Below, piece by piece: positions 43,072 through 62,627 of a DNA stretch of 64,000 nt (its first letter is position 1; every line of letters starts with the position of its first letter). The stretch comes from Ignavibacteria bacterium. Its GTDB lineage: Bacteria > Bacteroidota > Ignavibacteria > Ch128b. Under the pieces are notes generated by a model. That model worked only from the letters and a program-made list of their open reading frames with translations. It was not told the DNA's origin and did not search any database. Made by a program: the position numbers and the translations under genes. Location of the stretch: contig JABLYA010000001.1 of NCBI GenBank assembly GCA_013177855.1, forward strand, positions 791,231-855,230, in the 5' to 3' direction.

Positions 43072-44574
43072 ATGGCATTAGTTGAAGAAATTAAAAAGAT
43101 AAAATCTATAACTCGAGAGCAATTCGAATTGCTTTATAATATTAGTCGAAAACTTAATTCTCTCGAGTACGAAGAAGGTCTGATAGATGAAACATTGGAT
43201 CTTGTCATAAATGTTGTAAATGCCGAAAGAGGTTTGTTTGCAAAATACGATACAGCGAAAAATGATTTTGAAATTATTGCTGCAAGAAATGTGAAGAAAG
43301 AATCAATTCAAGATTTATCATCATTTTCGTCTGGAATACTTCAAAAAGTTGTTCAAAACAAAAAACCATTTCTTTACCACGATGTTCAAAGTGACCCTTC
43401 TCTCTCACAATTTGATAGTGTTCAAATTCATAGAATAAAATCAGTACTTGGTGTTCCAATTATTAAGGACGGTAATGTTTGGGGAGTTATTCTTGTCGAT
43501 AGTCAAATAAATCGTAAAGAGTTTACGGAAGAGAATCTTATCTTTTTAGATTTCTTTTCTAATCTTGTCTCTCTCGCACTTGATAAAATTTTGAATCTGC
43601 AAAAACTTGAAAAAGAAAATCTTTATCTTAAAAATCAGCTGCAATCAACACAAAAAATTCCTGAGATTGTTGGTGATAGCCCCGCAATTAAAAAACTATT
43701 TCAATTAATTCACAAAGTTGCTTCAACTGACGCAACAGTTTTAATTTTAGGTGAAAGTGGAACTGGAAAAGAGCTTGTCGCAAGATCAATTCACAATTTA
43801 AGTCAGAGAAAAGATAAACCTTACATTGCTCAATTTTGCGGTTCGATTCCTGACACTTTGCTTGAAAGCGAATTATTTGGTTACAAGAAAGGAGCTTTTA
43901 CAGGCGCTACTTCAGATAAAAAAGGTTTGTTTGAAGTTGCAGATGGCGGAACATTTTTCCTCGACGAAATTGCTGATATCTCTCCAGCACTTCAGGCAAA
44001 GTTATTGAGAGTTTTGCAGAACAAAGAAATAACTCGATTGGGCGATACCAAACCAATTAAAGTTGATGTCAGAATAATTGCAGCAACAAATAAAGACTTG
44101 AAGCAGCTTGTCAATGAGAACAAATTCCGGGAAGATTTATTTTATCGATTGAATGTTTTTCCAATTGAAATTCCACCGCTTCGAGAAAGAAGAAGTGATA
44201 TTCCTCTTCTGGCACATCATTTCATTAAAAAATACTCAAATCGGGAAATTACAATTACACCACAAGCTATGAAAAAGTTAGAAAATTTTTATTGGCCCGG
44301 TAATGTTCGTCAACTTGAAAATGTAATTCAACGAGCCCTTATTTTATGCGATTCAAATCAGCTGACACCTGAACACATTATCATAGAAGACGAAGAAAAT
44401 CTGCTGGACTTTAAAGGAACACTTGAAGATTTCGAAAAACTTTTACTATTGAAACGATTAAAAGAATATGACGGGAATCGAACTCAAACTGCTAAATCGC
44501 TTGGAGTCTCGGTAAGATGGGTTCAGATGAAATTAAAAGAAATCAATTCAAATGAATTTAGAGAAGATGAGTGA
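43072..44574 (+). CDS. Sigma-54-dependent transcriptional activator with GAF sensor domain
   Basis: A 500-residue bacterial enhancer-binding protein. An N-terminal GAF domain (about 25-175) senses a small ligand or redox state; the AAA+ domain has Walker A GESGTGKE (about 227), the intact sigma-54 contact loop GAFTGA (about 275-280), Walker B GGTFFLDEIAD and RLNVFPIEIPPLRERRSDIP; a Fis-type helix-turn-helix lies at about 455-492. It resembles the NorR / FhlA group. It has no REC domain, so phosphorylation by a histidine kinase is not expected. It overlaps a Ser/Thr kinase gene by 23 bases, which may point to Ser/Thr phosphorylation or shared signalling. Confidence 0.93.
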   Translation: MALVEEIKKIKSITREQFELLYNISRKLNSLEYEEGLIDETLDLVINVVNAERGLFAKYDTAKNDFEIIAARNVKKESIQDLSSFSSGILQKVVQNKKPFLYHDVQSDPSLSQFDSVQIHRIKSVLGVPIIKDGNVWGVILVDSQINRKEFTEENLIFLDFFSNLVSLALDKILNLQKLEKENLYLKNQLQSTQKIPEIVGDSPAIKKLFQLIHKVASTDATVLILGESGTGKELVARSIHNLSQRKDKPYIAQFCGSIPDTLLESELFGYKKGAFTGATSDKKGLFEVADGGTFFLDEIADISPALQAKLLRVLQNKEITRLGDTKPIKVDVRIIAATNKDLKQLVNENKFREDLFYRLNVFPIEIPPLRERRSDIPLLAHHFIKKYSNREITITPQAMKKLENFYWPGNVRQLENVIQRALILCDSNQLTPEHIIIEDEENLLDFKGTLEDFEKLLLLKRLKEYDGNRTQTAKSLGVSVRWVQMKLKEINSNEFREDE

Positions 44575-46135
44575 ATTAAAAACCCTTTTCGAAAAATTTG
44601 AAATTGTCGAGACTTTGAAAAAGGATTCACAAACTGGTGTCTATCTTGCAAATCATATCTATTTGAATAAGAAAATTATTTTAAAATCTCTCGATACATC
44701 AAATTTAACAGACCAAACAATCTTACATCGTTTTAAGAGAGAAGCAAAAATACTCGCACAACTTGATCACCCAAACATTATTAAAGTTCTCGATTTCGGC
44801 ACATATCAAAACTACTTTTATATTTCATTTGAATATTTTCAGGGAGAATCACTTAGAATTTTTTTGAAAAAGAAAAAACTTGATTTAAATGAATTTGAAA
44901 TCATTGTTGCTCAAATACTCTCAGGGCTTGATTATGCACATTCACAAAAAATTATTCACAGAGACTTGAAACCCGACAACATTCTAATTGATTCGAATCT
45001 TAAAGTTAAAATAGCGGACTTTGGACTTGCATTAAGTGAAGATGAGGTTCAGGTAACGAGGAAAGAATCTATCGTCGGAACACCAGGTTATATGTCACCA
45101 GAACAAATTCGAGGTGAGGAATTAACAGCTTCAAGTGATATTTTTTCTTTGGGAATTATTCTCTTTGAAATGCTGACCGGATCAAATCCTTTCATTGGTA
45201 AAGACATCACAACAACAATCAATAACATTCTTTTCTTAGACAGAGAAGTTCTCGAACAAAAACTCATTAATGTTCCAGAAAAGTGGTCAAAAATTATTCT
45301 TCGATGCCTTGAAAAATCAATTGATAAGAGATATAAATCAATCTCTGAAATTTCAAATGACGCAGACTTGGCTTTTGAAAAAAGTTTAACTTCAAAAGAC
45401 AAAACTAAATTTGAATTAAAATTTTCAACACCAATCGTTTTATCATTCAGTATTATCTTAATCTTAGCAGTGAGTGTAATTTTCTTTATTGAGAAATCAG
45501 CAAAAGAAAAATCAAAAGAACCTTCATTAGCAGAAAATCCTATATTTAATGTAGTTCCTAATACTCCATCTGATCAAAAAATTTCAGAACAATTATTGAA
45601 AAATCAAAAACAAATCGAAGACACCAAAAACGAAAAACTCATCTCAACACAAAAGTTGAACGAGTCAAATCAAACTGAACTTAATACGGTAAATTCAGAT
45701 GGTGAATTATTCATAACCTGTTCACCCTGGGCTGATATTTACATCAATGATGAAAAGATAGAAACTACTCCATTACAAAAACCCATAAAACTTAAAACAG
45801 GCAAATATCAATTGAAACTTATTCATCCAAATTTTCCACCAATAGATCAAACAATTGAAATACAACCTGATAAACTGCTGAAATTGGATTTTAACTTTTA
45901 TGAAAATTTTGGATACATTGAATTTCAGATTATTCCCTGGGGTGAAGTGAAAATTAACAATAAAAATTATGGTACATCCCCTTTTCAAAAACCTGTGATT
46001 CTAAATCCGGGGAAACAAATATTAACTTTTCATAATCCAAAATTTGGATATTTTATTGATACAATTTTTTTACAAAAAGGTGAAACTCTAATTTATCGGT
46101 TAAACTTTAATAATGTCAAAACACTGGCACAATAA
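44552..46135 (+). CDS. Membrane Ser/Thr protein kinase with PEGA domains
   Basis: A 527-residue PknB-like kinase. The catalytic domain (about 12-275) has lysine in KKIILKSL, the catalytic loop IIHRDLKPDN (135-144), DFG in IADFGLAL and an activation segment ending GTPGYMSPEQ. The glycine-rich loop is poorly conserved. A membrane segment at about 292-314 is followed by a charged linker and two PEGA domains (about 385-450 and 455-522), expected outside the cytoplasm and likely to bind surface glycans or proteins. The start could be ATG 44552 or 44567. Both overlap the preceding activator gene. Confidence 0.92.
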   Translation: MNLEKMSELKTLFEKFEIVETLKKDSQTGVYLANHIYLNKKIILKSLDTSNLTDQTILHRFKREAKILAQLDHPNIIKVLDFGTYQNYFYISFEYFQGESLRIFLKKKKLDLNEFEIIVAQILSGLDYAHSQKIIHRDLKPDNILIDSNLKVKIADFGLALSEDEVQVTRKESIVGTPGYMSPEQIRGEELTASSDIFSLGIILFEMLTGSNPFIGKDITTTINNILFLDREVLEQKLINVPEKWSKIILRCLEKSIDKRYKSISEISNDADLAFEKSLTSKDKTKFELKFSTPIVLSFSIILILAVSVIFFIEKSAKEKSKEPSLAENPIFNVVPNTPSDQKISEQLLKNQKQIEDTKNEKLISTQKLNESNQTELNTVNSDGELFITCSPWADIYINDEKIETTPLQKPIKLKTGKYQLKLIHPNFPPIDQTIEIQPDKLLKLDFNFYENFGYIEFQIIPWGEVKINNKNYGTSPFQKPVILNPGKQILTFHNPKFGYFIDTIFLQKGETLIYRLNFNNVKTLAQ

Positions 46136-46149
46136 TTGACTTATTTAGA

Positions 46150-47427
46150 ATGATGAGAAAGTTAATTTATACATACTTGATTGTCTTACTGATTGCTGTT
46201 GAAAGTTTCAGTCAGAATCTTCAATGGCAGGAAATTGGCAGGATGCCTGTTCCAGTTAAAGGCCACCGTGCTGTTGTGATGGATTCTGTAATTTTAATAA
46301 TTGGTGGTTTTTCTGATTCTTTGAATATGCCCATTGATTTAATTCAAGAATTCAATCCACAGCAAAACTCGTGGCGGATAATCGGAAATACAAAATTTAA
46401 GAGAACAAATTTCTTTGCGGGCAAATTACATGACAGCTTAATTATTTTTGGCGGAGTCTACCGAGCACCAACTAATTTAGATTACTTTTCACTTGAGATC
46501 TGGAAAAAAAATTTTCTACCATACATTTATAGATATAATCCAATTTTTAACAGAAGATTCTCCTCCGGCTTTTTAACAGAAAATAGACTGTTTGTTTTAG
46601 GCGGGAAAAAAATTCCTGTTCATATGGATACTACTAAACTTAATTATTTAATTGAATACGATGTGATAAAAGATTCAATTGTTTTTGTAATGGAAAAACT
46701 CCCGGGCACCACCGAAATTCCATTCCATCAAGCAATATGTAAAATGAATTCGGATGCTTTTATTTTCGGAGGTGTTTCAACTGGACTTCTCAACCGAATT
46801 TATAGATTTGATATAATTAATAAATCTTTGAACAGGTTGCCAATCAATTTACTCCAGTCAAGAGCTGGCTCTGAGGCAGTTCAAATAAACGATTCCAAAA
46901 TTTTAATCATTGGCGGTTACAATGAATATTTCAAAGCATTGAAAACAACCGAAATTTTTACTCAATTCGGCAATTACTTTTCAATTGAATATGGACCGAG
47001 TTTAAAATATGCAAGGAAAGAATTTGCAGCAGTTCGTTATAAAAATTCTATCTATGTTTTCGGTGGTGAAAATCAATTCGATGAAACTGTACCTTATGTT
47101 GAAAAACTTGACCTACTAACGGATGTTGAAGATTCACCAAATGTGATAAATGATTTTTCACTTGACCAAAACTATCCAAATCCATTTAATCCCAGCACCA
47201 CAATTTGCTTCAGAATTCCGCAAAAATCAAAGGTTTTTCTTGAAATTTTTGATATTTTTGGAAACCGCATCAAAACTCTAATTAATAGTGAACTGGAAAG
47301 TGGTGAATATAAAATTGTTTGGGATGGTACTGATGAATATAATAATCGGGTTGCATCAGGTGTGTATTTTTACAGGTTGAGTAGCGCTAAAATCTCTCTC
47401 ACGAAGAAAATGGTATTGTTAAAGTAA
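46150..47427 (+). CDS. Kelch-repeat secreted protein with type IX secretion sorting domain
   Basis: A 425-residue protein with a signal peptide (about 1-22, ending SFSQ), five or six kelch-like repeats (VILIIGGFSDS, LIIFGGVYR, LFVLGGKK, AFIFGGVS, ILIIGGYNE, IYVFGGENQ) forming a beta-propeller to about residue 325, and a C-terminal type A sorting domain starting DQNYPNPFNPST with the strand pattern ending GVYFYRL and KKMVLLK. It should be exported by Sec, then by the type IX system, and anchored or released at the cell surface. Lies 14 bases after the Ser/Thr kinase gene. Confidence 0.88.
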   Translation: MMRKLIYTYLIVLLIAVESFSQNLQWQEIGRMPVPVKGHRAVVMDSVILIIGGFSDSLNMPIDLIQEFNPQQNSWRIIGNTKFKRTNFFAGKLHDSLIIFGGVYRAPTNLDYFSLEIWKKNFLPYIYRYNPIFNRRFSSGFLTENRLFVLGGKKIPVHMDTTKLNYLIEYDVIKDSIVFVMEKLPGTTEIPFHQAICKMNSDAFIFGGVSTGLLNRIYRFDIINKSLNRLPINLLQSRAGSEAVQINDSKILIIGGYNEYFKALKTTEIFTQFGNYFSIEYGPSLKYARKEFAAVRYKNSIYVFGGENQFDETVPYVEKLDLLTDVEDSPNVINDFSLDQNYPNPFNPSTTICFRIPQKSKVFLEIFDIFGNRIKTLINSELESGEYKIVWDGTDEYNNRVASGVYFYRLSSAKISLTKKMVLLK

Positions 47428-48270
47428 ATGTTTAAGAAATTTTCTGTTATCATTTTTCTAGTCTTTGAATTTTCAACCTTAGCTTTTTCACAAACCTCTT
47501 CAAGTTTTGAAACAGTTTTAAAACAGAAATTTGAAAATTTTGATTACAACTCTGTCATAAATCTTGCTGATTCAATTCTAAAGAATGAAAAAAAATTAAG
47601 TCACGAAGATTCTTTAGTTATTCTCTACTACAAGGCAATATCAAGTTTTACTATTTGGGATATAAAAACAAGCGAACAATCCTTTAGAATGATTCTGACA
47701 CTGGACAAAAATTTTACTCTGGATTCTATCAATGTTTCGCCAAAAATTATTTCCTATTTCAACGACTTAAAATCAAAATTTGTTAATGAGAACAGAACCG
47801 AAAAACAAAATAATTCACTCAACATTGATTCTCTATTATCTTTAGAGAGAAGAAAATATTCTTCTGAATTTGCTTCTTACAGACAGGCTCTCTGGAGAAA
47901 TTTAATTTTACCTGGTTGGGGCGATATCTATCTAAATAATAATTTTAAAGGCTATCTATTCTCAGGAACTTTCACATTATCTTTTATATCAAGTGTGTAT
48001 TACATTTTTGATACGAAGAAAAAAGAAAATGATTATTTGAATGAAATTAATCCAGATTTGATTTTAGAAAAATACTCGAAGTATAATTCTTCTTACAAAT
48101 TAAAAAATATCTTTATTGCTTTGACATTGTTCGTATATATTTATTCGCAGGTAGATTTTCTTATTTCAAAAAATTATTACATTCAATCTAATCATTATCC
48201 AACTTTATCAAGTTCAGAAGATTCTTATTCCACCATCAAAGTCTCTTTTTCGCTTCCTATAAAGTTCTAA
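47428..48270 (+). CDS. DUF5683-like membrane protein with N-terminal helical region
   Basis: A 280-residue protein starting directly after the previous stop codon (TAAATG). A signal peptide ends near FSQ (about 22); residues 25-125 form TPR-like helices; the segment ALWRNLILPGWGDIYLNNNFKGYLF near 150-175 matches the LPGxGQIYNxxxxKG motif of DUF5683 and related small membrane proteins; two or three membrane segments follow (about 170-190 and 222-242). Function unknown; co-transcription with the kelch type IX cargo suggests an envelope role. Confidence 0.62.
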   Translation: MFKKFSVIIFLVFEFSTLAFSQTSSSFETVLKQKFENFDYNSVINLADSILKNEKKLSHEDSLVILYYKAISSFTIWDIKTSEQSFRMILTLDKNFTLDSINVSPKIISYFNDLKSKFVNENRTEKQNNSLNIDSLLSLERRKYSSEFASYRQALWRNLILPGWGDIYLNNNFKGYLFSGTFTLSFISSVYYIFDTKKKENDYLNEINPDLILEKYSKYNSSYKLKNIFIALTLFVYIYSQVDFLISKNYYIQSNHYPTLSSSEDSYSTIKVSFSLPIKF

Positions 48271-48306
48271 ACTTAAATTTAACCCTACGAAAAACTATCC
48301 CTGACT

Positions 48307-48321
48307 GCGAAAAATTTTCGC
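48307..48321. promoter_or_regulatory. Perfect palindrome, candidate upstream activator site for the sigma-54 promoter at 48403
   Basis: GCGAAAAATTTTCGC is a perfect 15-base dyad centred at 48314, about 115 bases before the predicted transcription start near 48429, the usual place for enhancer-binding proteins. Further copies of the half-site lie at 48288-48293 (CGAAAA) and 48247-48256 (TTTTCGCTTC, repeated at 48315-48324). It has no trailing U run, so it is not a terminator. Confidence 0.4.
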
Positions 48322-48402
48322 TTCAAAAACAGATATCAAAATTAAAGATGGAAATACATAAAAAATTGTTTAATTTTTACAAGGAAAAAAGGAGTTTTAC
48401 TC

Positions 48403-48418
48403 TGGCATAAAAAGTGCC
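48403..48418 (+). promoter_or_regulatory. Sigma-54 (RpoN) promoter, -24/-12 type
   Basis: TGGCATAAAAAGTGCC fits the -24/-12 consensus: TGGCA at 48403-48407 and TGC at 48415-48417, with GG and GC exactly 12 bases apart as required. It predicts a start of transcription near 48429, leaving a 20-base leader with a GAGGT ribosome binding site before the ATG at 48448. Two sigma-54 activators are encoded nearby (43072 and 52865). Confidence 0.75.
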
Positions 48419-48447
48419 TTTTAATTGAAAAAATAAAGAGGTGTTGT

Positions 48448-50604
48448 ATGAAAAAAATTAACATTCTTTTCGTTCTCTTGTTAATCTTAGGTGTTAATTT
48501 AGTTTCAGCTCAGGTTCCAGCTCCAACTAATTTAACAGCCGAATTTAAACAAGAAAACCATCCCGGTATGATGGGCTATGGATATGTGGAGTTAAAATGG
48601 CAAATGCCCCAAACTCCATCAACAGGATATCTGTTCAAAGTTTTCCGAATGGGACCAAATGATACAAGCTACAAACAGATTGCAGCTTTTGTCCGTGATA
48701 AAAAATTCATTGACCACAACATTAGTCCACAGAGCACTTACTCTTACTATGTTGTAGCTTATAATAATCAAGGTGTAAGTGATCCAAGCAACACAGCATC
48801 GGTCACAACTCCACCTATTCCAGATATTGTGAGATTTGTTACCTTCCCAATTAAGCTTGCATCGCTTGGAGTATTGTATTCATATGATGCTGATGCAGTA
48901 AGTAATCAACCAGACGCAGTACTCACATATTCATTAGTTGAAGGTCCAGCAGATTTGAACGTAGATGCGCAAAGCGGACTTGTAACGTGGACTCCTTCAG
49001 TTGCTGGTTACTTCAAAGTTAAAATTAAAGCAGAGAGTAATTTAGGTGGGAAAGCATATCAGGAATGGACCATTAAAGTTACAGGTCCGACAGGTACTAT
49101 TTCTGGGACGGTCACTAACGCTTCAGATAACTCTCCATTAGCTGGTGTAAGTGTTTTCTTTATCAACACAAATTCGACAAAACACGAACTTGCTTTAACT
49201 GACGAAAATGGACAATTCTCAAAACAACTTGTTGAAGGCAACTACAAAATAAGATTCTATAAACGAGGATTTATTCCAGAATTTTATGACAACAAAAGCT
49301 CGATTGATTCTGCAGATGTTGTTACAGTTTCAGCTAATTCTTCAGTTGTTGTAAATGCTGATTTACAACCAGTTCCACCACCAGTAGTTTACAATATTTC
49401 TGGAAGTGTACTTGATGTAAACGGATTACCTGTTAAATCAGTTGTAACTGCATTCCTGGTAAAAGATACAACATTCCCGATTCTTCCACCTTCAATTATG
49501 CATAATAGAAAAATGACTACCGTGACTGATAGTCTAGGAAATTATCAACTAACTGTTCTCGGTGGATTTGAATATGTAGTCTACGCAAAACCATTTAATA
49601 GAAATTATTATCCAGAATTCTGGGATAATAAGAAAACTTTCCAGGAAGCAGATAGAATTTTAGTTAACTCAGATGTGAACAACATAAACTTCGTTCTCGA
49701 GCAAAAACCAGTTTACAATAATGGAATTGCAGGACTTGTTAAAGATTTCAATACCGGCGAACCTGTTGAGGCAGTTGTCAGCGTATTCAAATTGACCAAT
49801 GGCAGATTCAAAGCATTCAAATCAACAAGAACTGACTCACTGGGTAATTATTTGATTGAAAATCTCATTCCTGGAAATTACATCGTATTTGCAAAACCAA
49901 GACTGCCTTACTTGCCTGGGTATTATAAAGCAGATACTGTTGCATTTAGATGGAGAGATGCGGATACCGTTATTGTAAATGAAACTGGTATAGTTGAAAA
50001 TATCAATATTAATTTAGTTCCTCGACCGGATACAGGATTTGCAAAAATTAGTGGATTTGTAAAAACGATTTATGGTGAACCCGTTTCTGGTGCTTTGGTT
50101 CTAACCTACAACTTGAATGGAGAAATAGTTTCATATTCAACTTCAAGCAACGATGGTTCATATCAAATTGAAAATTTAACCGCCGGTGATTATACACTTG
50201 TTGTTGATGCAACAGAATATGACAATGCTGATAATAACAATTCGGTCAATCTGAATTATGGTAGCAATCCAACTGCATCAAAAGATTTATACTTAAGCCC
50301 AGCAACAACAACTGGTGTTTCAAACAATTCACCTGTTCCAAGTAATTACACATTATCTCAAAACTATCCAAACCCATTCAATCCATCGACTCAAATTAAA
50401 TTTACGATTCCAGAGAAAACACAAGTTAAGCTTGAAGTTTACAACTTAATTGGACAGAAAGTAGCAGAGTTAGTCAATGGTGAATTGAATGCAGGTGAAT
50501 ATAATATCACATTCAATGCAAGCGGATTAAGCTCAGGAATTTATCTCTATAAATTACAGGCTGGCAATTTCTCAAGTGTTAAGAAAATGATATTGATGAA
50601 ATAA
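48448..50604 (+). CDS. Large multidomain surface protein with type IX sorting domain
   Basis: A 718-residue exported protein. After a signal peptide (to about residue 22, SAQ), it has a fibronectin type III domain (about 24-125), a cadherin-like / Ig domain (128-210), four tandem carboxypeptidase-regulatory-like domains starting near 214 (GTISGTVTNASDNSPLAG), 317 (YNISGSVLDVNGLPV), 425 (NGIAGLVKDFNTGEPV) and 530 (AKISGFVKTIYGEPV), and a C-terminal sorting domain from about 628 with SQNYPNPFNPST and ending KKMILMK. It is likely a secreted matrix, adhesion or filament component. Its own sigma-54 promoter and terminator make it a monocistronic unit. Confidence 0.9.
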   Translation: MKKINILFVLLLILGVNLVSAQVPAPTNLTAEFKQENHPGMMGYGYVELKWQMPQTPSTGYLFKVFRMGPNDTSYKQIAAFVRDKKFIDHNISPQSTYSYYVVAYNNQGVSDPSNTASVTTPPIPDIVRFVTFPIKLASLGVLYSYDADAVSNQPDAVLTYSLVEGPADLNVDAQSGLVTWTPSVAGYFKVKIKAESNLGGKAYQEWTIKVTGPTGTISGTVTNASDNSPLAGVSVFFINTNSTKHELALTDENGQFSKQLVEGNYKIRFYKRGFIPEFYDNKSSIDSADVVTVSANSSVVVNADLQPVPPPVVYNISGSVLDVNGLPVKSVVTAFLVKDTTFPILPPSIMHNRKMTTVTDSLGNYQLTVLGGFEYVVYAKPFNRNYYPEFWDNKKTFQEADRILVNSDVNNINFVLEQKPVYNNGIAGLVKDFNTGEPVEAVVSVFKLTNGRFKAFKSTRTDSLGNYLIENLIPGNYIVFAKPRLPYLPGYYKADTVAFRWRDADTVIVNETGIVENININLVPRPDTGFAKISGFVKTIYGEPVSGALVLTYNLNGEIVSYSTSSNDGSYQIENLTAGDYTLVVDATEYDNADNNNSVNLNYGSNPTASKDLYLSPATTTGVSNNSPVPSNYTLSQNYPNPFNPSTQIKFTIPEKTQVKLEVYNLIGQKVAELVNGELNAGEYNITFNASGLSSGIYLYKLQAGNFSSVKKMILMK

Positions 50605-50627: not shown

Positions 50628-50662
50628 AGTGCTGCTTCTTTAACAAGAGGCAGCACTTTTTT
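50628..50662 (+). terminator. Intrinsic terminator after the large type IX cargo gene
   Basis: AGTGCTGCTTCT (50628-50639) pairs with AGAGGCAGCACT (50646-50657) through one G-U wobble, loop of six bases, followed by six T (50657-50662). A standard Rho-independent terminator 24 bases past the stop codon. Confidence 0.93.
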
Positions 50663-50691: not shown

Positions 50692-51549
50692 ATGTCAGAA
50701 TACATCAGGAAAATTAAAAGACAAATTGAAATTGTTGGTAAGGCTCTTTCATCAGTTGAAAAATTCACTGTAACAGATTTAGCAGTCGAATATGATGTAG
50801 AAGAATTAACCATTAAAAGAGATCTTGCTGAATTACGGTCAAGAGGTATCGATATTCACTCATTAAAGAGAGGCGGAATAAAAATTTTACACCCGATTAA
50901 AGAGGAAACTCTTAAAGAATTTATTCTTGAATTTATTGGTTTCTCCTACTCAGAAGATTATCCTGATAAAGCAACCTCAATACTAATTCAAAAGTTAGGT
51001 CCAAAAGCTCTCACATTTATCACAGAAATTCAGAAAGCTATAGAAAAAAATTTCATCACCATCATTGATTATAAATCAACTGCTAACACATTAAAGAAGA
51101 ATGTTTACATTCACCCTTTAAAAATATTTCAATCTCAAGGAGAATGGAGATTACTTGCAGTTAATCAGAATTTGATCAAACAATATTATATCTCCAAAAT
51201 TCAAGATGTAAGAGTTACCGATGAGAAATTTAAGCCTTTGAAGAAAGAAAAAATTGATTCACTTTTTTCATCTTCACTTAAAAGTTGGATTGGACCTGAA
51301 CAATTTTTAATTAAAATTCATTTTGACAAGAATTGGGCTGAGGTAATTAAAAGCAAAACTTATCTTCTGAATCAAAAAATAACTGAAATGGAAGATGGTT
51401 CGGTAATTTTTGAAGGCAATGTAAATTCAATTGACGAAGCCGCAACCTGGGTCTTATCCTTTGGTAAAGGAGCTAAAGTCCTTGAGCCTGAACAATTGAA
51501 AACTAAAGTTATTCAGCTCGCAAAAGAAGCACTTTCCAACTACAAATAA
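50692..51549 (+). CDS. WYL-domain transcriptional regulator
   Basis: A 285-residue protein with an N-terminal DeoR-type winged helix-turn-helix (about 20-65: FTVTDLAVEYDVEELTIKRDLAELRSRGIDI) and a WYL-like ligand domain (about 110-195: NVYIHPLKIFQSQGEWRLLAVNQ ... QYYISKIQDVRVTDEKF), in which the name motif is altered (EWRLLAV). A C-terminal WCX-like region follows (about 210-280). Such proteins bind nucleic acids or nucleotides and often regulate stress or defence genes. No defence genes are adjacent; the next gene is of unknown function. Confidence 0.83.
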   Translation: MSEYIRKIKRQIEIVGKALSSVEKFTVTDLAVEYDVEELTIKRDLAELRSRGIDIHSLKRGGIKILHPIKEETLKEFILEFIGFSYSEDYPDKATSILIQKLGPKALTFITEIQKAIEKNFITIIDYKSTANTLKKNVYIHPLKIFQSQGEWRLLAVNQNLIKQYYISKIQDVRVTDEKFKPLKKEKIDSLFSSSLKSWIGPEQFLIKIHFDKNWAEVIKSKTYLLNQKITEMEDGSVIFEGNVNSIDEAATWVLSFGKGAKVLEPEQLKTKVIQLAKEALSNYK

Positions 51550-52864: not shown

Positions 52865-54232
52865 GTGGAAAGAGGAAAAATACTTATCTGTGATGATGAT
52901 CAAGTTTTGGCTCAAATTCTTTCAGATGAATTACGAGCAGAAAATTTCAATACAGTCATTACCAATTCTGGTAAAGATGCAATTGAAGAACTGAAAATCA
53001 ATTATTATGATGTCCTTTTGCTTGATCTTAATTTGCCTGATATAAAAGGCTCTGAAGTTCTTAAATTTTCAACAGCTAATTTCCCCTTTACTCAAGTGAT
53101 TATGTTAACCGGCACTTCTGATATTTCTGATGCCGTAGAATGTATGAAACTTGGTGCCTATGATTTTATTACTAAACCTTATGATTTCAACGAACTTCTC
53201 CAGGTAATTTTTAAAGCAATTGAAAAGAAAAATCTTATTACAAATAACATTGTTCTTTCAAAAGAATTAAATCAATTACTTGGTTTTGAAATAATTGGAG
53301 AAAGTAAATTATTCAAAGAATTACTTGCGCTGGCATCAAGAGCTGCTCAATCTGATTCCCCAATCTTAATTCAAGGTGAAACAGGAACAGGAAAAGAAGT
53401 TTTAGCTAAATACATTCATTCAATAAGTCCGAGAAGTTCAAAACCAATTGTTACTTTAAACTGCGCATCGCTCCCAGACACATTGTTTGAAAGCGAATTG
53501 TTTGGTCATGAGAAAGGTTCATTTACCGACGCCAAGCAAACAAAACCCGGACTCGTAGAAATTGCAAATGAAGGTTCTTTATTCTTAGATGAAATTGGTG
53601 AGCTCTCTCTTATCATACAACCCAAATTACTTCGTTTCCTTGAAACTGGAGAATTCAGACGAGTTGGCGGATTAAACAATCGTAAATCAAATGTAAGATT
53701 AATTGCTGCGACAAATAAAAACCTCGTCAACGAAGTTAAAGAAAAAAGATTTCGGGAAGATTTGCTTTTCAGATTAAATGTAATTCCTTTAACAATCCCG
53801 CCATTAAGAAAAAGGAAAGAAGATATCATTCCACTCGCTGAATATTTTCTCAAACAGAAAAATAAAACGAGAAAACCAAAAATTCTTTCAGATGAAGCAA
53901 AAGAATTTTTACTGAATTATAACTTCCCTGGAAATGTTAGAGAGCTTGAACATTTAATCGAAAGAAGTTTAATCTTTTGTGATGGCGAAGTAATTTATCC
54001 AAAGCATTTTAATTTAATGATGTCACCGATCTATTCAGTTTCGGAAGTTGAAGAAGAAATAAATAGAACAACCGGCAAACCATTTCACGAACTTTCGGCT
54101 GAAGAGCTCGAGAAAATACATATTAAATCTGTTCTTGATGCAAATAACTGGAATAGGGAGCAAAGTGCGAGAGTTTTGGGAATTAGTCTAAAAACTCTTT
54201 ACACAAAAATTAAAAAGTATAACCTTCAATGA
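52865..54232 (+). CDS. NtrC-family response regulator (sigma-54 activator, PilR-like position)
   Basis: A 455-residue protein with a REC domain (1-118; acidic pocket C-D-D-D near 9-12, phosphoacceptor Asp54 in LLLDLNLPD, Lys in TKPYD), an AAA+ domain with Walker A GETGTGKE (about 172-179) and Walker B GSLFLDEIGE, and a Fis-type helix-turn-helix (about 412-453). The sigma-54 contact loop reads GSFTDA (about 218-223) where GAFTGA is canonical. The start codon is GTG. It overlaps the hybrid kinase by 4 bases (ATGA), and the pair converges on the pilus operon, recalling PilS-PilR. Confidence 0.92.
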   Translation: MERGKILICDDDQVLAQILSDELRAENFNTVITNSGKDAIEELKINYYDVLLLDLNLPDIKGSEVLKFSTANFPFTQVIMLTGTSDISDAVECMKLGAYDFITKPYDFNELLQVIFKAIEKKNLITNNIVLSKELNQLLGFEIIGESKLFKELLALASRAAQSDSPILIQGETGTGKEVLAKYIHSISPRSSKPIVTLNCASLPDTLFESELFGHEKGSFTDAKQTKPGLVEIANEGSLFLDEIGELSLIIQPKLLRFLETGEFRRVGGLNNRKSNVRLIAATNKNLVNEVKEKRFREDLLFRLNVIPLTIPPLRKRKEDIIPLAEYFLKQKNKTRKPKILSDEAKEFLLNYNFPGNVRELEHLIERSLIFCDGEVIYPKHFNLMMSPIYSVSEVEEEINRTTGKPFHELSAEELEKIHIKSVLDANNWNREQSARVLGISLKTLYTKIKKYNLQ

Positions 54233-56616
54233 TCGATAAATTCTTAAACAGAGCTGGTAAAGAATTTATTGAACTATTAACTAATTCGGGCTACGGGCTC
54301 TGCATAACTGATGAAAATTTAAAATTGATCTGGGCTAATAAAAATTTTGAAAGCTGGTTTGAAACTGGCACAGATAAATATCTTTTTGAAATAATCGAAG
54401 AAAAAGAAACAAAAGAAAAATCAGAGATTTTTCAAGCGATACAAAAAAGCGATAAAATTAGAATTGAAATAAAAAATCCATCAACCAAACGATGGTTTAT
54501 CGTAAGTTCCATTTCAACACAAATTGAGAGTGATAAAAATTTCTATCTTTTTCTTCTTGACGATACGACAGAGAAAAAAACAGTATTTGAAAATTACATT
54601 TCCCAACTTGAACTTCTTGATAATGTCGAGGACGGAATTTTTTCGACCGATTTTAATAACAGAGTGACTTACTGGAATAAAGGTGCAGAAAAAATTTATG
54701 GTTATTCAGCTAATGAAGTAATCGGGAAAGTTATTAATCAAGATTTTATTCTATACGACCCAATTGATATAGAAACTCAAATCCAGATAACACAAGAATT
54801 AGAAAAATATCGAACTTATTATTTCAAACGAAGGGAGTACAGAAAGGATCAGATAGAAATATGGGTTGAAGGTAATGTAACTCTAATAATTGATACAGGA
54901 GATAATCCGGTCGGTTTAATCTATATTGTCAGAGATATAACTGCTAAATTAAATTCCGAAATTTTAAGTTATCTTAATGCAAATCTTCAAAAAACTTTAA
55001 GAGAAATAACAGCGAATCTGTTAAGTGATTTTTCGTTTTCAGATATAAATCTTCAATTAACTAAAAAATGCAAAGAGCTAACTGAGAGTGAAATTTGTGC
55101 AATATTTAAAATTAATGAACATAGAAGCGAGATAATTGAGCTAATTTGCGAAAAAGAATTAAATCAAGAACAATTGGACCAGTTAATTGAGTGTTCTTTT
55201 TCAATTTTAAGCTGGCTTGAATTAAATAGAAAGAGTCTTGTGAGTTTTAATGAATCGTATCCTGAAATAATTGGAAAGCTGAGGAATATCCTTAACCTAG
55301 ATCAATTCATTATTTCTCCTGTCATTATAAAAAATGAAATCCAGTATTTTCTTCTGATTGGGGCTAATAAATTTAATCTACAAAATTATAAAGTAGAAAT
55401 ATTGAATTCGTTTGCTTCTCATTATTCATTTATTGTCAGTTATTTTGAAAAGAAATTACTTCAAGAAACTCTTGAGGAAAAACTCAAGCAAACACAAAAG
55501 TATGAGCTCACCAGTAATTTAATCAGCGGCATAGTTCATGATTTCAAAAATTTATTGTACGGTTTGAAAGTTTCAAATGACTTAATTAAACAAAAATATT
55601 CTAGTGAAATTCCTAAAAATGTTATAGAAGAGATTGATACACTTCTAAACCGTGGTCTCGAATTATCAAAAAGTCTACTTGAAATAGGGAAACCACTCAA
55701 ACCAGTAAAAACTCACTTTAAGTTAGTTAAGTTACTTGATGAAGTTTATAACTTAGCTGTAAAGATTTGCCCATCCAATATTTCAATCAAAAAATATTAT
55801 AAACCTGATCTTCCTGAAATTTATGCGGATTACACTCAACTCCATCAAGTATTTATGAATTTAGTTATCAACGCACGTGATGCAATGCCCAATGGCGGTG
55901 AATTATCAATTATTGCAGATGAAATTTCAATCACTGAAAAAGATTATCTGCAACAATCTAAATTAAAACCTGGCAACTATCTTATCATATCTTTTTCAGA
56001 TACGGGACATGGAATTCCAAAAAAATATCTTGATAAAATTTTCGAACCGTATTTTACGACCAAAGATCAACAGAAAGGAACTGGCTTGGGTCTTTTTATA
56101 TCCCAAAACATAATCACGAAACACAACGGTTTGATAACAGTTGAAAGTGAAATAGGGAAAGGCACAACATTTAAAATTTACTTGCCCTTTACTAAAACCG
56201 AAATTCAAGAACAAAAGAAAATAATTCAAACAAAAGTGAAATCAAATCCAACAATCCTTATCGTTGATGACGAAGATTCGATTCGTAATTTGCTAGCCGA
56301 AATGCTAAGCCTGCAGAATTTTCAAGTTCTTGACGCTTCATCAGGTGAAGCAGCTAAAGATATTTTTCTTAAAAATCAGAATATCATAGATCTTGTTATT
56401 CTGGATTTTCATTTAAAAGATATGACAGGAGAAGAAGTTCTCAGATTTATTCGGGAAAGAGATAAAGAAGTCCCTGTCTTCATTGCCAGCGGTATAATTG
56501 ATAATGAATTAACCGAGCGACTTAATGAATTATTGGCAGATAAAATTATTGAAAAGCCTTACGAATTTGATGCGTTGATAGAAAGCATTAATAATTACAT
56601 AAAAATTTCATCTTAA
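54229..56616 (+). CDS. Hybrid histidine kinase with PAS domains and C-terminal receiver
   Basis: A 795-residue cytoplasmic-looking sensor: PAS (about 10-110), a second PAS with PAC (about 125-240; FSTDFNNRVTYWNKGAEKIYGYSANEVIGK), a GAF-like region (about 250-410), the H-box SGIVHDFKNLLYG (His near 436), an ATPase domain (about 535-657; NLVINARDAMPNGGEL, DTGHGIPKKYLDKIFEPYFTTK, GTGLGLFISQ) and a C-terminal REC domain (675-795; Asp near 725 in LVILDFHLKD, Lys in EKPYEF). No membrane segment is seen, so it probably reads an internal signal. Its stop overlaps that of the convergent gene in a shared TTAA. Confidence 0.92.
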   Translation: MIDKFLNRAGKEFIELLTNSGYGLCITDENLKLIWANKNFESWFETGTDKYLFEIIEEKETKEKSEIFQAIQKSDKIRIEIKNPSTKRWFIVSSISTQIESDKNFYLFLLDDTTEKKTVFENYISQLELLDNVEDGIFSTDFNNRVTYWNKGAEKIYGYSANEVIGKVINQDFILYDPIDIETQIQITQELEKYRTYYFKRREYRKDQIEIWVEGNVTLIIDTGDNPVGLIYIVRDITAKLNSEILSYLNANLQKTLREITANLLSDFSFSDINLQLTKKCKELTESEICAIFKINEHRSEIIELICEKELNQEQLDQLIECSFSILSWLELNRKSLVSFNESYPEIIGKLRNILNLDQFIISPVIIKNEIQYFLLIGANKFNLQNYKVEILNSFASHYSFIVSYFEKKLLQETLEEKLKQTQKYELTSNLISGIVHDFKNLLYGLKVSNDLIKQKYSSEIPKNVIEEIDTLLNRGLELSKSLLEIGKPLKPVKTHFKLVKLLDEVYNLAVKICPSNISIKKYYKPDLPEIYADYTQLHQVFMNLVINARDAMPNGGELSIIADEISITEKDYLQQSKLKPGNYLIISFSDTGHGIPKKYLDKIFEPYFTTKDQQKGTGLGLFISQNIITKHNGLITVESEIGKGTTFKIYLPFTKTEIQEQKKIIQTKVKSNPTILIVDDEDSIRNLLAEMLSLQNFQVLDASSGEAAKDIFLKNQNIIDLVILDFHLKDMTGEEVLRFIRERDKEVPVFIASGIIDNELTERLNELLADKIIEKPYEFDALIESINNYIKISS

Positions 56617-57705: not shown

Positions 57706-58938
57706 TCATTTTTCTTCTACCGGGTTAATTTGATAGATTTTTATATCCTTCTGATACTGTTCCCTGGTTTTCTCTATCAAATTTTCACTCTTCCTGCGGG
57801 AAGTAAACCTTTCTTTCAAAGTTGGTACTAATTTAGCTTTAAGAACAATAATTAATTCTTTTTTAGTATAAGTCTTTTTATCAAATCCTGTGAGATACCT
57901 GATGCCTAAAACCCACCAGGGCAAATCTTTTAATATTGGAATACCACTTCTTTCTATCTTTTCTTCTGTTATGTATAATCCTCCTATCACAGTTTCTTCA
58001 CCATCAACAAGCAAAACATCTGTTTTAGCTTTTGTCTTTTTTATTTCAGTTGAAAGTTGACCAGGTATTGCGTTACTCCTCTCTGCCTCTAAATCAATCA
58101 GAATGTAATTCTTTCCATCTTCTTCAAAAATATATGGAGTAACTCGAATAATTGTACCTGTGGAATAAAATCTTTCTACTGTATTACCGGCAAAATCTTT
58201 TTCTCTTGTAGAGAAATCAGCACCGACCTGTATTTCACCTCTTACTCTGTCTCTAACCGTGATTTGAGGGCTTGCAATAACTTCGCCAAGTTGATTTTGC
58301 TCAAAGAAATTAAACAAAGCAGTTGCGCGTCCAAGAAAATCACCGAACTGTCTTTCGCCATATAATCCAAGATTAAATGTTTTTGTTTGATCAGTCGTAG
58401 GTGGTGCATTTAAGTTAAAGATTGTATTATCCGTTTGTCCTAACTGACCGGCAACATCAAAATCTTTGTTATTTGTAAGAAGCCATTTCCAATTTATACC
58501 CATTTCTCTTGATTTAGCAACATCGAGTTCAAAAAACACAGCAGAAATATTTACTTCGCGGGTAGTAAGATCAACTCCTTTCATTGCATCGGGCAGAGGT
58601 GGTTTTTCTCCTTTACGCGGAAGAATTTTAATATACTCCTCAGTCTCAGTGAATTCGAGATTGTGATATTTAAGTATTAATAATAATGCTCTGTACCAAT
58701 TCATCTGTATTATATCAATTCCAATCGGATCGGTTATATCTTCACTTAAAACAATTATTTTGTTCAAATACTGTTTGCTTAATTTACTTAGCATTTGCAT
58801 TGCCTGATTAAATGGCAATGACCCTGAAAGAGAAACGAGCTCTTCTGGTGAACTTGAAAGCATTCTTTGAAATTCTCTCTGACTTTGAGCGTAACAACTC
58901 AAAGCAAAAACTAAAATAAAGAATATTAATTTTTTCAT
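57706..58938 (-). CDS. pilQ: Short PilQ/GspD-family secretin
   Basis: A 410-residue outer-membrane channel protein with a signal peptide (to about 19, CYAQS), an N0/STN-like domain (about 55-105: GIDIIQMNWYRALLLILKYHNLEF), a connecting domain (about 120-150) and the secretin domain (about 215-375) with the signature VLLVDGEETVIGGLYITEEKIERSGIPILKDLPWWVLG. PilQ of proteobacteria is 650-750 residues with AMIN domains that bind peptidoglycan; those are missing here. It overlaps the PilO-PilP gene by 4 bases and is the last structural gene of the visible pilus operon. Confidence 0.9.
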   Translation of the reverse strand: MKKLIFFILVFALSCYAQSQREFQRMLSSSPEELVSLSGSLPFNQAMQMLSKLSKQYLNKIIVLSEDITDPIGIDIIQMNWYRALLLILKYHNLEFTETEEYIKILPRKGEKPPLPDAMKGVDLTTREVNISAVFFELDVAKSREMGINWKWLLTNNKDFDVAGQLGQTDNTIFNLNAPPTTDQTKTFNLGLYGERQFGDFLGRATALFNFFEQNQLGEVIASPQITVRDRVRGEIQVGADFSTREKDFAGNTVERFYSTGTIIRVTPYIFEEDGKNYILIDLEAERSNAIPGQLSTEIKKTKAKTDVLLVDGEETVIGGLYITEEKIERSGIPILKDLPWWVLGIRYLTGFDKKTYTKKELIIVLKAKLVPTLKERFTSRRKSENLIEKTREQYQKDIKIYQINPVEEK

Positions 58939-59828
58939 TTTTTAAACTCCTTAATATTTGCGCTTTTAAGTTTCAGAGTAACTTTCTCAATGATACCTCC
59001 TTTATTAAGCAAGAATTCACATTGCTGATTGTCGTAATCAATTCTTGTAAGATAACCGAGATAAACGGGATCTCCTTCCGATAGTGTGTATGAATTTCCA
59101 TTTTTATCCATGATAAATACTGCATCAGGTATAATTGCTAATAATGTTGCCCCATCGACTTCTAACAATGCATCGTAATTTGGCGGAATATCTGGTCTTA
59201 TTAATGGGAAGAATAAATTTTTTACTGGTTTAATTTCTCTTGGTTGAATATTTTCATAATTGAGGGCAAGGTTCGTGTCGGTTGTAAAGTATGATTCAAG
59301 TTTAATTTCAAATTCAACCTGATATAAAATTTCACCCTTACCAGTTGTTAAGGTTGCATTTCGTAATTCGAGACCTTGAATTTTATAAAGTTTCTTTGAT
59401 TTTTCGAGCTGGTAGATCAAGCGAAAAACATCTTCAAATTCACCTTGACCGCTAATTACAAAATAATCAACAGAGGCTGCTCCAATAGATTCAGTTTTTT
59501 GATACTCGATATTCACTCTTGTATAACGAGAAAAATTCTTTGTAATATTTAAGATGTCATTATAAGTATCTGTGATAGAATAACGGAACGGAATTGCTTT
59601 AGCCATATTGTATAAGATCGAATCAACTTTTTCTGATTCTTTTTGAAGTGAATCGTACATTGCCGCCAAAGTTTTCACATCAAGAAATTGTTGATTCAGG
59701 TTTTCTAATTCCATTTGTTTTGCTTTAATCTGCTTTGGTTGAAAAACCAAAACATAATAACCTCCAATTCCAACAAAGAGAATAAAGAAAACAAATAGGA
59801 TAAGAGCATTTCTTGTTGTATTGCTCAT
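58935..59828 (-). CDS. PilO-PilP fusion protein (type IV pilus alignment complex)
   Basis: A 297-residue inner-membrane protein. Residues 7-30 form the membrane anchor, about 32-65 a coiled coil and about 75-180 a ferredoxin-like PilO domain. After a linker with KNLFFPLIRPD, the C-terminal part (about 210-290: ALLEVDGATLLAIIPDAVFIMDKNGNSYTLSEGDPVYLGYLTRIDYDNQQCEFLL) resembles the beta domain of PilP, which contacts the PilQ secretin. PilO and PilP are separate in Pseudomonas, Neisseria and Myxococcus. It overlaps the PilM-PilN gene by one base and pilQ by 4. The PilO half is assigned from topology and position, the PilP half from a moderate pattern match. Confidence 0.75.
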   Translation of the reverse strand: MSNTTRNALILFVFFILFVGIGGYYVLVFQPKQIKAKQMELENLNQQFLDVKTLAAMYDSLQKESEKVDSILYNMAKAIPFRYSITDTYNDILNITKNFSRYTRVNIEYQKTESIGAASVDYFVISGQGEFEDVFRLIYQLEKSKKLYKIQGLELRNATLTTGKGEILYQVEFEIKLESYFTTDTNLALNYENIQPREIKPVKNLFFPLIRPDIPPNYDALLEVDGATLLAIIPDAVFIMDKNGNSYTLSEGDPVYLGYLTRIDYDNQQCEFLLNKGGIIEKVTLKLKSANIKEFKK

Positions 59829-61360
59829 TATTGTACCCCTTTATATCCGTACTTTTCAGGGTTTAGTGTAATTTCGAAACGGTTAATTTCTCTATCACGT
59901 AATTCCTGACTGATCATACTTTTTAGTAGTGCTTTATCAAGATGATCAGAAAAATCAGGGATTGTATATTTATTAATTCCTACTCCCATTATTTTTACAC
60001 CTTCATCTGAAGCAGCAAATGAAGTTAACCAGATTCTCCTTTTATCAGGTTGATATTCTTGAATTTTCATTAGTATTTCTGTCCATCTTTCAGCGCCAAG
60101 GATTAATGTATCAATCGTTCTTTGAATTTTTAATCCAGCATCAATTCTTTGGGAAAGTTGATTCACTTTATTAACCAGTTCAGCATTTTCGGCAATCAGG
60201 AGTTGTTTACTTTGAATTTCAGTTTGAAGAACCTGGATCTTATTTTTATTTACAATATATTTTTGGGTAAAGAAAACAACTGCTATAAATATTAAAAATA
60301 AAAGCGCATATCCAACAGGACTTAATTTGAAGATCTTTTGCGCTTCAATTAAATCATACGGTAATAAATTTACTCTTGGAACTTTTGATTTATCTTTCAT
60401 CAATAAGAAAAACAATGGAGCAATGCTAAAGGCATAAACTGGAGCTTGTTCTTTTTTCTCATCAGGAAGGGCAGTTAAATCCAGCTCATCAAACTTAATG
60501 ACCTCAACTTCTGCAAGAGGGAAACTACCATAAAAAGTTAACTGCACGGTTGTTTCAACTACTTCACCAGCAAGAAAGATTTTATCGATTTCTGAAACCT
60601 GTGCAATATCCATCTCTAGATTAATTTTACTAATAATTATATCATGGAAACCTACAGTCTGAACTCCAACTCCGAGATAACTTGAGATATGTTTAATTGT
60701 TTTATTTGAGATTAAAATAATTCTACTGGAATCAATTCCTACATAAACAATCAAGTAATTTTTATCTGGTTGTATGTTATATTTATTAAGGACATAACTT
60801 GCCAGACAAATATCGCCGCCCGAAATAAATGGAATTCTGGGCATTCTCATTTTCCAGAAACGAGCGAATTTTTCAATCTGGTCGAGCACTGGATAATTTT
60901 CATTAATATATATGGTTAGATAGGTATCCTCAGAGTATTTATAGTATCTCAAATTTTTTTCGTCTATTGATGAGACTTTTGTATCAAGCCATCTATCGAT
61001 AATATATTGTTTTAATTCTTTCTCTTTAAGTTTTGGAACATTATTCAGAATTAGATAAGATATCTGAGGTTCTGTTACAACCGGGACAAAAATGATATCT
61101 TTTATATTTTTAACCTTACCACTTAAAACATTTGAGAGCATTGGCTCTTCGAGGTCTTCCCCGCTCTCTTCACCTGGTTCAAAAAGAATAGTGTCTGAGT
61201 CTACTTCTAATTCAGATTTTGGTGGTCCATAAAATTCCTGGGGACTTCCTTTTAGTCCATAGGTTACAATGTCTTCGAGTTTTAACCCCCTCGAAGTTTT
61301 AGAGACTATTGCGATTTTAGTCTCTGGACCATCAACAAAAATTCCAACATATTTTTTCAT
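59828..61360 (-). CDS. PilM-PilN fusion protein (type IV pilus alignment complex)
   Basis: A 510-residue protein. The first 310 residues form an actin-like ATPase fold of PilM type (KKYVGIFVDG near the start; LIVYVGIDSSRIILISNK near 200-217; SYLGVGVQTVGFHDIIISK near 228-246). Residues 326-331 read VNLLPY, the N-terminal motif by which PilN docks into PilM, followed by a membrane segment (about 345-367), a coiled coil (370-410) and a ferredoxin-like domain (420-500), the layout of PilN. In most bacteria these are two proteins. The gene overlaps pilT by 4 bases and the PilO-PilP gene by one. Confidence 0.82.
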   Translation of the reverse strand: MKKYVGIFVDGPETKIAIVSKTSRGLKLEDIVTYGLKGSPQEFYGPPKSELEVDSDTILFEPGEESGEDLEEPMLSNVLSGKVKNIKDIIFVPVVTEPQISYLILNNVPKLKEKELKQYIIDRWLDTKVSSIDEKNLRYYKYSEDTYLTIYINENYPVLDQIEKFARFWKMRMPRIPFISGGDICLASYVLNKYNIQPDKNYLIVYVGIDSSRIILISNKTIKHISSYLGVGVQTVGFHDIIISKINLEMDIAQVSEIDKIFLAGEVVETTVQLTFYGSFPLAEVEVIKFDELDLTALPDEKKEQAPVYAFSIAPLFFLLMKDKSKVPRVNLLPYDLIEAQKIFKLSPVGYALLFLIFIAVVFFTQKYIVNKNKIQVLQTEIQSKQLLIAENAELVNKVNQLSQRIDAGLKIQRTIDTLILGAERWTEILMKIQEYQPDKRRIWLTSFAASDEGVKIMGVGINKYTIPDFSDHLDKALLKSMISQELRDREINRFEITLNPEKYGYKGVQ

Positions 61361-62625
61361 ATTTTACTCGTAAGTAATTGTTGGATTCTTGATTTATTAT
61401 TGGCAAAAGCGATCGCTGTTTCGTAAGTAATTTTTCGTGCTTTAAATAGTCTTGCCAGATCCTGTTCCATAGTGTTCATTCCAAACTCACCACCCTGATG
61501 GATCATTTGATAAATCTCGCTTGTGTTGTTGTTTTTAATAGCCGCCTTAACTGATGGAGTTACTACAAGAACTTCTTTAGCAAGTGTTCTTTTTCCATCA
61601 ACAGTTGGGACTAATTTTTGAGAAACAATACATCTCAAAACATCTGCAAGTCGCATTCTTACTCGTTCCTGTTCCTGGACTTCAGTTTCTCCAATAATTC
61701 TATCAATTGTTTCGACAGCAGAAGATGTATGAAGAGTTGAAAATACTTTATGACCACTATCGGTAACATCAAGTGCAGCAACGATTGTTTCAGGATCTCT
61801 TAACTCACCAATAACAATTATATCGGGATCCTGTCGAAGTGCTTGTATTGTTCCTTCTTTAAAAGACAAGACATCTCTGCCTACTTCTCGATGTCTAATT
61901 AAACATCTTTTAGACTGATGAACATATTCGACGGGTGAGCTTATGATAATGATATGTGCATCACAGGTTCGATTATTTTCATCAATTATTGCATCAAGTG
62001 TTGTTGATTTTCCAGAACCCGTAATACCAGTAATCAATATCAATCCTTCTTTCATATAATTTAAATTCATCAACTGAGCTACATAAGGATGAAAGCCAAG
62101 ATCAGAGAAAGGTCTTAACTGGGAGAGAATAGCTCTACAATTTAATGACAACTCATCGAGTTCAAAATAAGCATCTGCTCTATATCGATAAATTCTTAAG
62201 TATGGTTTTGTCTCTCTAATTTCAATTGAAAAATCAAGATTTCGTTTAGAAATCAAATACTCAATTTGTTTTTCACTTAAAATATTCAGTATTAGGATAC
62301 TTGATTCTGTCGTATTAAACTCTGGTAGTTCATTTAATGGTTTTTTATTCCCATGAATTCTCATCCAGAAGCGATTCAAACTGCCAGGTCCGCCAAAGTC
62401 AAGATCAGACGCTTCCACCTTATGCATTTCAAACAATAAGCTTTCGAGAAAAGAACGCAATAATTCTCGTTGTTGATTGTTTAATCCCTCCACAAAACTT
62501 TTCAGGTAAAGGACCTTGTCAATTCCTTTGATATATTCCGGGACAAGTTTAAGTCCTTCTCCAATAATTTCTTTTACTTTTTGAGTAAGATTTTTAAAAT
62601 CATTCGATTTAATTTCTATGAACAT
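61357..62625 (-). CDS. pilT: PilT-type retraction ATPase
   Basis: A 422-residue secretion ATPase: Walker A GITGSGKSTT near 201, an Asp box and Walker B DPDIIVIGELRDPETIVAALDVTDSGH, and the His box STLHTSSAVETIDRI. The C-terminal LLTSKI and QMIHQGGEFGMNTMEQDLARLFKARKIT segments match PilT. The N-terminus has about 60 extra residues, and the usual ASDLH is ASDLD here. It retracts the pilus, so this system is a type IV pilus rather than only a type II secretion system. It lies 2 bases after pilB. Confidence 0.92.
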   Translation of the reverse strand: MFIEIKSNDFKNLTQKVKEIIGEGLKLVPEYIKGIDKVLYLKSFVEGLNNQQRELLRSFLESLLFEMHKVEASDLDFGGPGSLNRFWMRIHGNKKPLNELPEFNTTESSILILNILSEKQIEYLISKRNLDFSIEIRETKPYLRIYRYRADAYFELDELSLNCRAILSQLRPFSDLGFHPYVAQLMNLNYMKEGLILITGITGSGKSTTLDAIIDENNRTCDAHIIIISSPVEYVHQSKRCLIRHREVGRDVLSFKEGTIQALRQDPDIIVIGELRDPETIVAALDVTDSGHKVFSTLHTSSAVETIDRIIGETEVQEQERVRMRLADVLRCIVSQKLVPTVDGKRTLAKEVLVVTPSVKAAIKNNNTSEIYQMIHQGGEFGMNTMEQDLARLFKARKITYETAIAFANNKSRIQQLLTSKI

Positions 62626-62627
62626 GA

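Follow-up and report, generated by a model that had tools for sequence, protein, structure and literature searches.

The type IX secretion cargo gene examined here, from an Ignavibacteria bacterium, appears to be preceded by a genuine sigma-54 promoter, on which a repeat-bound AAA+ activator would act, and together with a neighbouring kelch gene it would make up a two-gene surface regulon; we put the probability of this overall reading at about 0.85. The window, i.e. the whole stretch of 64,000 nucleotides that was analysed, contains the following features around the promoter, all on the plus strand except the repeat, to which no strand is assigned:

44552-46135, plus: Ser/Thr protein kinase with a PEGA domain (Pfam)
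46125-46139, plus: second sigma-54 type box, TGGCACAATAATTGA, overlapping the kinase stop codon, found in six of six genomes and the top-scoring site of the window
46150-47427, plus: kelch propeller protein with a type IX sorting domain
47428-48270, plus: 280-aa membrane-like protein with no Pfam family, preceding the promoter gap
48308-48320, no strand: inverted repeat CGAAAAATTTTCG, candidate activator (enhancer) site, its centre 115 bp upstream of the predicted start
48403-48417, plus: sigma-54 type -24/-12 box TGGCATAAAAAGTGC, recognised from its sequence, with a counterpart in six of six genomes, one per gap
48429-48447, plus: predicted 19-nt leader with the ribosome binding site GAGGTG at 48438-48443, from sequence and geometry, the start being inferred
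48448-50604, plus: the cargo gene, encoding 718 aa with CarboxypepD_reg repeats and a type A sorting domain for type IX secretion
50628-50657, plus: strong terminator-like hairpin 3' of the cargo gene, 13 pairs followed by a T-rich stretch

The box was described in an earlier note on this DNA, and its sequence, coordinates and spacing were confirmed: the GG of TGGCATAAAAAGTGC lies at 48404-48405 and the GC at 48416-48417, with ten bases in between, as expected of a sigma-54 promoter with a TGGCAC-N5-7-TTGCT-like sequence, the consensus given in the available part of PMC12316311. Compared with TTGCT there are two mismatches, a G before the TGC and a C after it. The ATG of the sorting-domain gene, at 48448, is 30 nt downstream of the box, and the start predicted at 48429 was placed 12 bases past the last base of the box; the short leader with a ribosome binding site which the same note had proposed is also present, GAGGTG standing just upstream of the ATG. 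The gene rpoN, whose absence had been named as a refuter, was looked up and is present, with one match in the genome at 203 bits (cut-off 22.8).

Taken alone, the box is unremarkable. The core pattern TGGC-N8-TGC has three matches in the 64-kb window against 2.02 expected, so that the site at 48403 by itself proves nothing and needs outside evidence. A scoring matrix built on 15 intergenic sites elsewhere in the genome, with the sites of the window left out, ranked 46125 first and 48403 second over both strands of the window, a ranking which is partly circular because the 15 sites were picked by pattern. One alternative is that the cargo gene is driven by a primary-sigma promoter and that the box resembles a sigma-54 site by chance, and the matrix scan lends this some weight, since 0.83 matches at least as good as 48403 are expected per shuffled window. 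When the 177-nt gap was shuffled, however, none of 2000 versions reached the score of 48403 on the coding strand, no E. coli-type promoter match was found on the coding strand of 48271-48447, and the TAnnTTTG box is absent from the corresponding gaps of all six genomes, each of which has one sigma-54 box; we consider this alternative improbable.

The case for a promoter comes from the presence of the box in all six orthologous gaps. The comparison set consisted of six family genomes (G000-G005), all of which have the cargo gene, with upstream gaps of 160-324 nt; [TC]GG[CT]A-N7-TG[AC] occurs exactly once in each gap on the coding strand, and no such box was found on the opposite strand of the six gaps. 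The six boxes (TGGCATAAAAAGTGC, TGGTATAATTTATGC, TGGCATAGAATATGA, TGGCATAATAATTGA, CGGCATTATTATTGA and CGGCACTATTATTGA) begin 44-59 nt upstream of the ATG, and four of the six orthologues have TGA instead of TGC as the -12 element. Contig C42 of G003 has a further, more distantly related copy of this gene, and no box was seen in the upstream stretch inspected there.

The same bases could also be taken for a terminator of the upstream genes, given that GGCAT-AAAAA-GTGCC is followed by TTTT and that a terminator scan marks 48404-48418. The stem, however, has only five pairs, three of them G-C, shuffled versions of the region fold about equally well (z -0.78), and the best fold omits the stem. 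Across the six genomes the stems over the box comprise 5, 5, 4, 4, 3 and 3 pairs and the T-run is absent in most, while the -24/-12 bases persist; a terminator is very improbable indeed. The terminator, primary-sigma and chance readings were set aside following the folding, shuffle and six-genome comparisons.

That the product of the gene is a type IX cargo, as had been claimed, is borne out by a TIGR04183 match of 51.1 bits (cut-off 23) at the C-terminus, covering residues 640-715 of 718. The label ‘matrix-like’ was looser: the Pfam scan of the protein returned CarboxypepD_reg-type domains and no matrix family. The N-terminus, inspected by eye for a signal peptide, reads MKKINILFVLLLILGVNLVSAQ. 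SprA, the component of the type IX machinery that was searched for, scores above its cut-off in all six family genomes.

The kelch gene, too, has its own box in all six family genomes. In four genomes this overlaps the stop codon of the kinase gene, with two different registers, and in the other two it is situated past that codon; the varying register against the stop codon indicates that what is conserved here is the DNA and not the protein. The sigma-54 start predicted for this gene coincides with tandem ATG codons (46125-46160). From that start the leader to the in-frame ATG would be about 2 nt in four of the six genomes, in which the kelch message would thus be nearly leaderless.

Upstream of the cargo box, the inverted repeat at 48308-48320 (CGAAAAWTTTTCG) is present as a single copy in the genome. 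Exact copies number one in G000, G001, G002 and G005, two in G004 and none in G003, against a chance expectation of about 1.3 per genome, so the evidence resides in shared location and not in number. One exact copy is held by the same cargo-gene gap in G000, G001, G002 and G004, its centre lying 115, 111, 126 and 103 bp upstream of the predicted start in these four genomes; the exact copies beyond the orthologous gaps are on C154 of G004 and C166 of G005. G003 and G005 have only a decayed repeat farther off, at 204 and 225, and no copy of the repeat was found upstream of the kelch gene. The activator sites of sigma-54 promoters are placed about 100-150 bp upstream in the available part of PMC7057263. 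The repeat would probably serve as an activator site, as judged from its sequence and position. Four further genes of the cluster are potential regulators:

43072-44574, plus: GAF-AAA+-HTH_8 sigma-54 activator with GAFTGA present, the favoured activator
50692-51549, plus: HTH_11-WYL regulator, rival candidate binder of the repeat
52865-54232, plus: NtrC-type response-regulator sigma-54 activator in which GSFTDA replaces GAFTGA
54229-56616, plus: PAS hybrid histidine kinase adjoining the response-regulator activator

The GAF activator is in the cluster in all six genomes, although truncated by a contig end in G005, and its identity of 76-86% in G001-G005 is higher than that of its neighbours; GAFTGA is kept in the six genomes. 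It could instead be that the promoter is a sigma-54 promoter whose repeat is bound by the WYL regulator or by the response-regulator activator, a serious if somewhat less probable alternative, as the genes for all three proteins are linked and a counterpart of the WYL gene occurs in G004 too (43% identity). Against it, the GAF activator has a recognition region that hardly differs among the six genomes, although the same is true of much of the other proteins. The relatives keep the gene order of the cluster wherever their contigs cover it, with the exception of G003, which has two extra genes inserted downstream of the cargo gene. The response-regulator activator shows GSFTDA, not GAFTGA, in each of the four genomes in which the motif could be read; according to the available part of PMC2941729, a change at that glycine, G266D, releases NorR from GAF repression. 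Adjoining these regulators on the minus strand, 57706-63983 encodes a secretin and two T2SSE ATPases, a group that may be type IV pilus or type II secretion-like.

With a conserved box, rpoN, two linked activators and a conserved candidate enhancer, the proposal of sigma-54 control of the cargo gene is well supported. In the mechanism that we favour, sigma-54 polymerase would wait in a closed complex at 48403-48417 until it is remodelled by an AAA+ activator bound to the inverted repeat some 115 bp upstream, and only then would transcription begin near 48429. For this activator the linked GAF-AAA+-HTH protein is the likeliest candidate, and its activity may be tuned by the kinase of the adjacent gene. 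The product of 48448-50604 would be a type IX secreted surface protein and the kelch protein, under its own sigma-54 promoter, would join it in a small surface-protein regulon. A more specific version, which we hold only tentatively, is that the -12 element of this lineage is mostly TGA and that a module of GAF activator, kinase and enhancer switches a two-protein type IX layer, with the kelch message nearly leaderless.

Similar boxes occur elsewhere in the genome. TGGCAYR-N5-TG has 29 sites, 12 of which are intergenic by a simple frame test, and for nine of these 12 a gene begins no more than 200 nt away; lengthening the spacer by one base gives 17 sites, two of them intergenic. The difference between the two spacers is of borderline significance (Fisher p 0.035, or 0.056 once three insertion-element copies are removed). 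When the insertion-element copies are dropped, A or C follows the TG at nine of ten intergenic sites versus three of 16 coding sites (p 0.0006), the nine consisting of six TGA and three TGC. A script assigned the 41 sites of TGGCAY-N6-TGM to intergenic positions with a downstream gene (14, including two insertion-element copies), intergenic positions without one (four, although inspection showed a same-strand frame for two of them) and coding sequence (23). TGGCA-N7-TGC has 37 sites: three intergenic with a gene, four ambiguous and 30 coding.

Among the genes downstream of boxes are those for Hsp20, RnfC, a 4Fe-4S protein, a peroxiredoxin, a sodium:solute symporter, a GcvH-like protein, a DUF4402 protein and a histidine kinase; inspection by eye added two more, the gene of a NiFe hydrogenase small subunit and that of a response regulator with pyruvate:ferredoxin oxidoreductase next in line. 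Hydrogenases belong to the classical targets of sigma-54, and a hydrogenase-like gene of G003 has a box, CGGTATAAATCTTGC, beginning 73 nt upstream. Three copies of a transposase-like gene (L079, L083 and L095, about position 1501) have TGGCACGAAAAATGA 58-69 nt upstream, which may be either a sigma-54-like box or part of the end of the insertion element. A 127-aa pilin-like protein with no Pfam family, which starts MGQQQLLLIVIGVIIVGIAI, is encoded at L009:1065-1445 (minus strand) and also on L105 and L108, and has a sigma-54-like box in the genome under study. Its gene adjoins type II/IV secretion ATPase genes in G001 and G003; the two pilin-like genes of G003 had no box in the upstream sequence inspected, and this member of the regulon may therefore not be conserved.

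The earlier note had linked sigma-54 to the type IX secretome at large, and here the genome-wide scan spoke against it. The 126 TIGR04183 matches of the genome were compared with 120 motif sites, and a strict box was found at the start of two of the 126 genes, both in the present cluster; one further gene has a box at a distance, 393 nt upstream of its frame. The survey used strict patterns, which weaker boxes would escape. A type IX-wide sigma-54 regulon is thus ruled out at the level of these patterns (two, possibly three, of 126), and boxes at so few sorting-domain genes point to a local regulon that takes in selected cargo only.

The association of sigma-54 with type IX cargo has already been published for Flavobacterium psychrophilum, so the general principle is known. 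In the available part of PMC9723704, the remFG-sprCDBF operon, which includes sprB, the gene of the type IX adhesin SprB, has an upstream sigma-54 motif that was tested by promoter mutagenesis. Its SM4 promoter resembles ours in that a sigma-54 -24/-12 box precedes type IX surface-adhesin genes (PMC9723704). The flavobacterial case differs in having a gliding operon, a second promoter and mutagenesis (PMC9723704), whereas the Ignavibacteria case, predicted from sequence, involves another protein family, linked activators and a candidate enhancer. The view that this connection is little explored consequently needs narrowing: it does not hold for the wider group, and for Ignavibacteria no paper naming them together with sigma-54 was found among the open-licence papers searched. 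There is also a likeness to the sigma-54 regulons of the cell exterior, in which promoters and activators are tied to surface genes (PMC3162934); that survey covers exopolysaccharide, flagella, lipids, LPS, lipoproteins and peptidoglycan, and its available text makes no mention of Bacteroid- or Chlorobi. Chaperone genes are described as sigma-54 targets in Bacteroidota in the available parts of PMC12316311 and PMC9723704, the former of which contains no mention of Ignavibact- or type IX.

The link between sigma-54 and type IX cargo would extend past the flavobacteria, and it concerns particular cargo genes and not the secretome. With TGA so frequent at -12, searches that use the classical consensus would miss promoters in Ignavibacteria. 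For these uncultured bacteria, the cluster offers a testable circuit, in which an activator and its probable binding site are brought together with two promoters and a pair of secreted proteins at one conserved locus.
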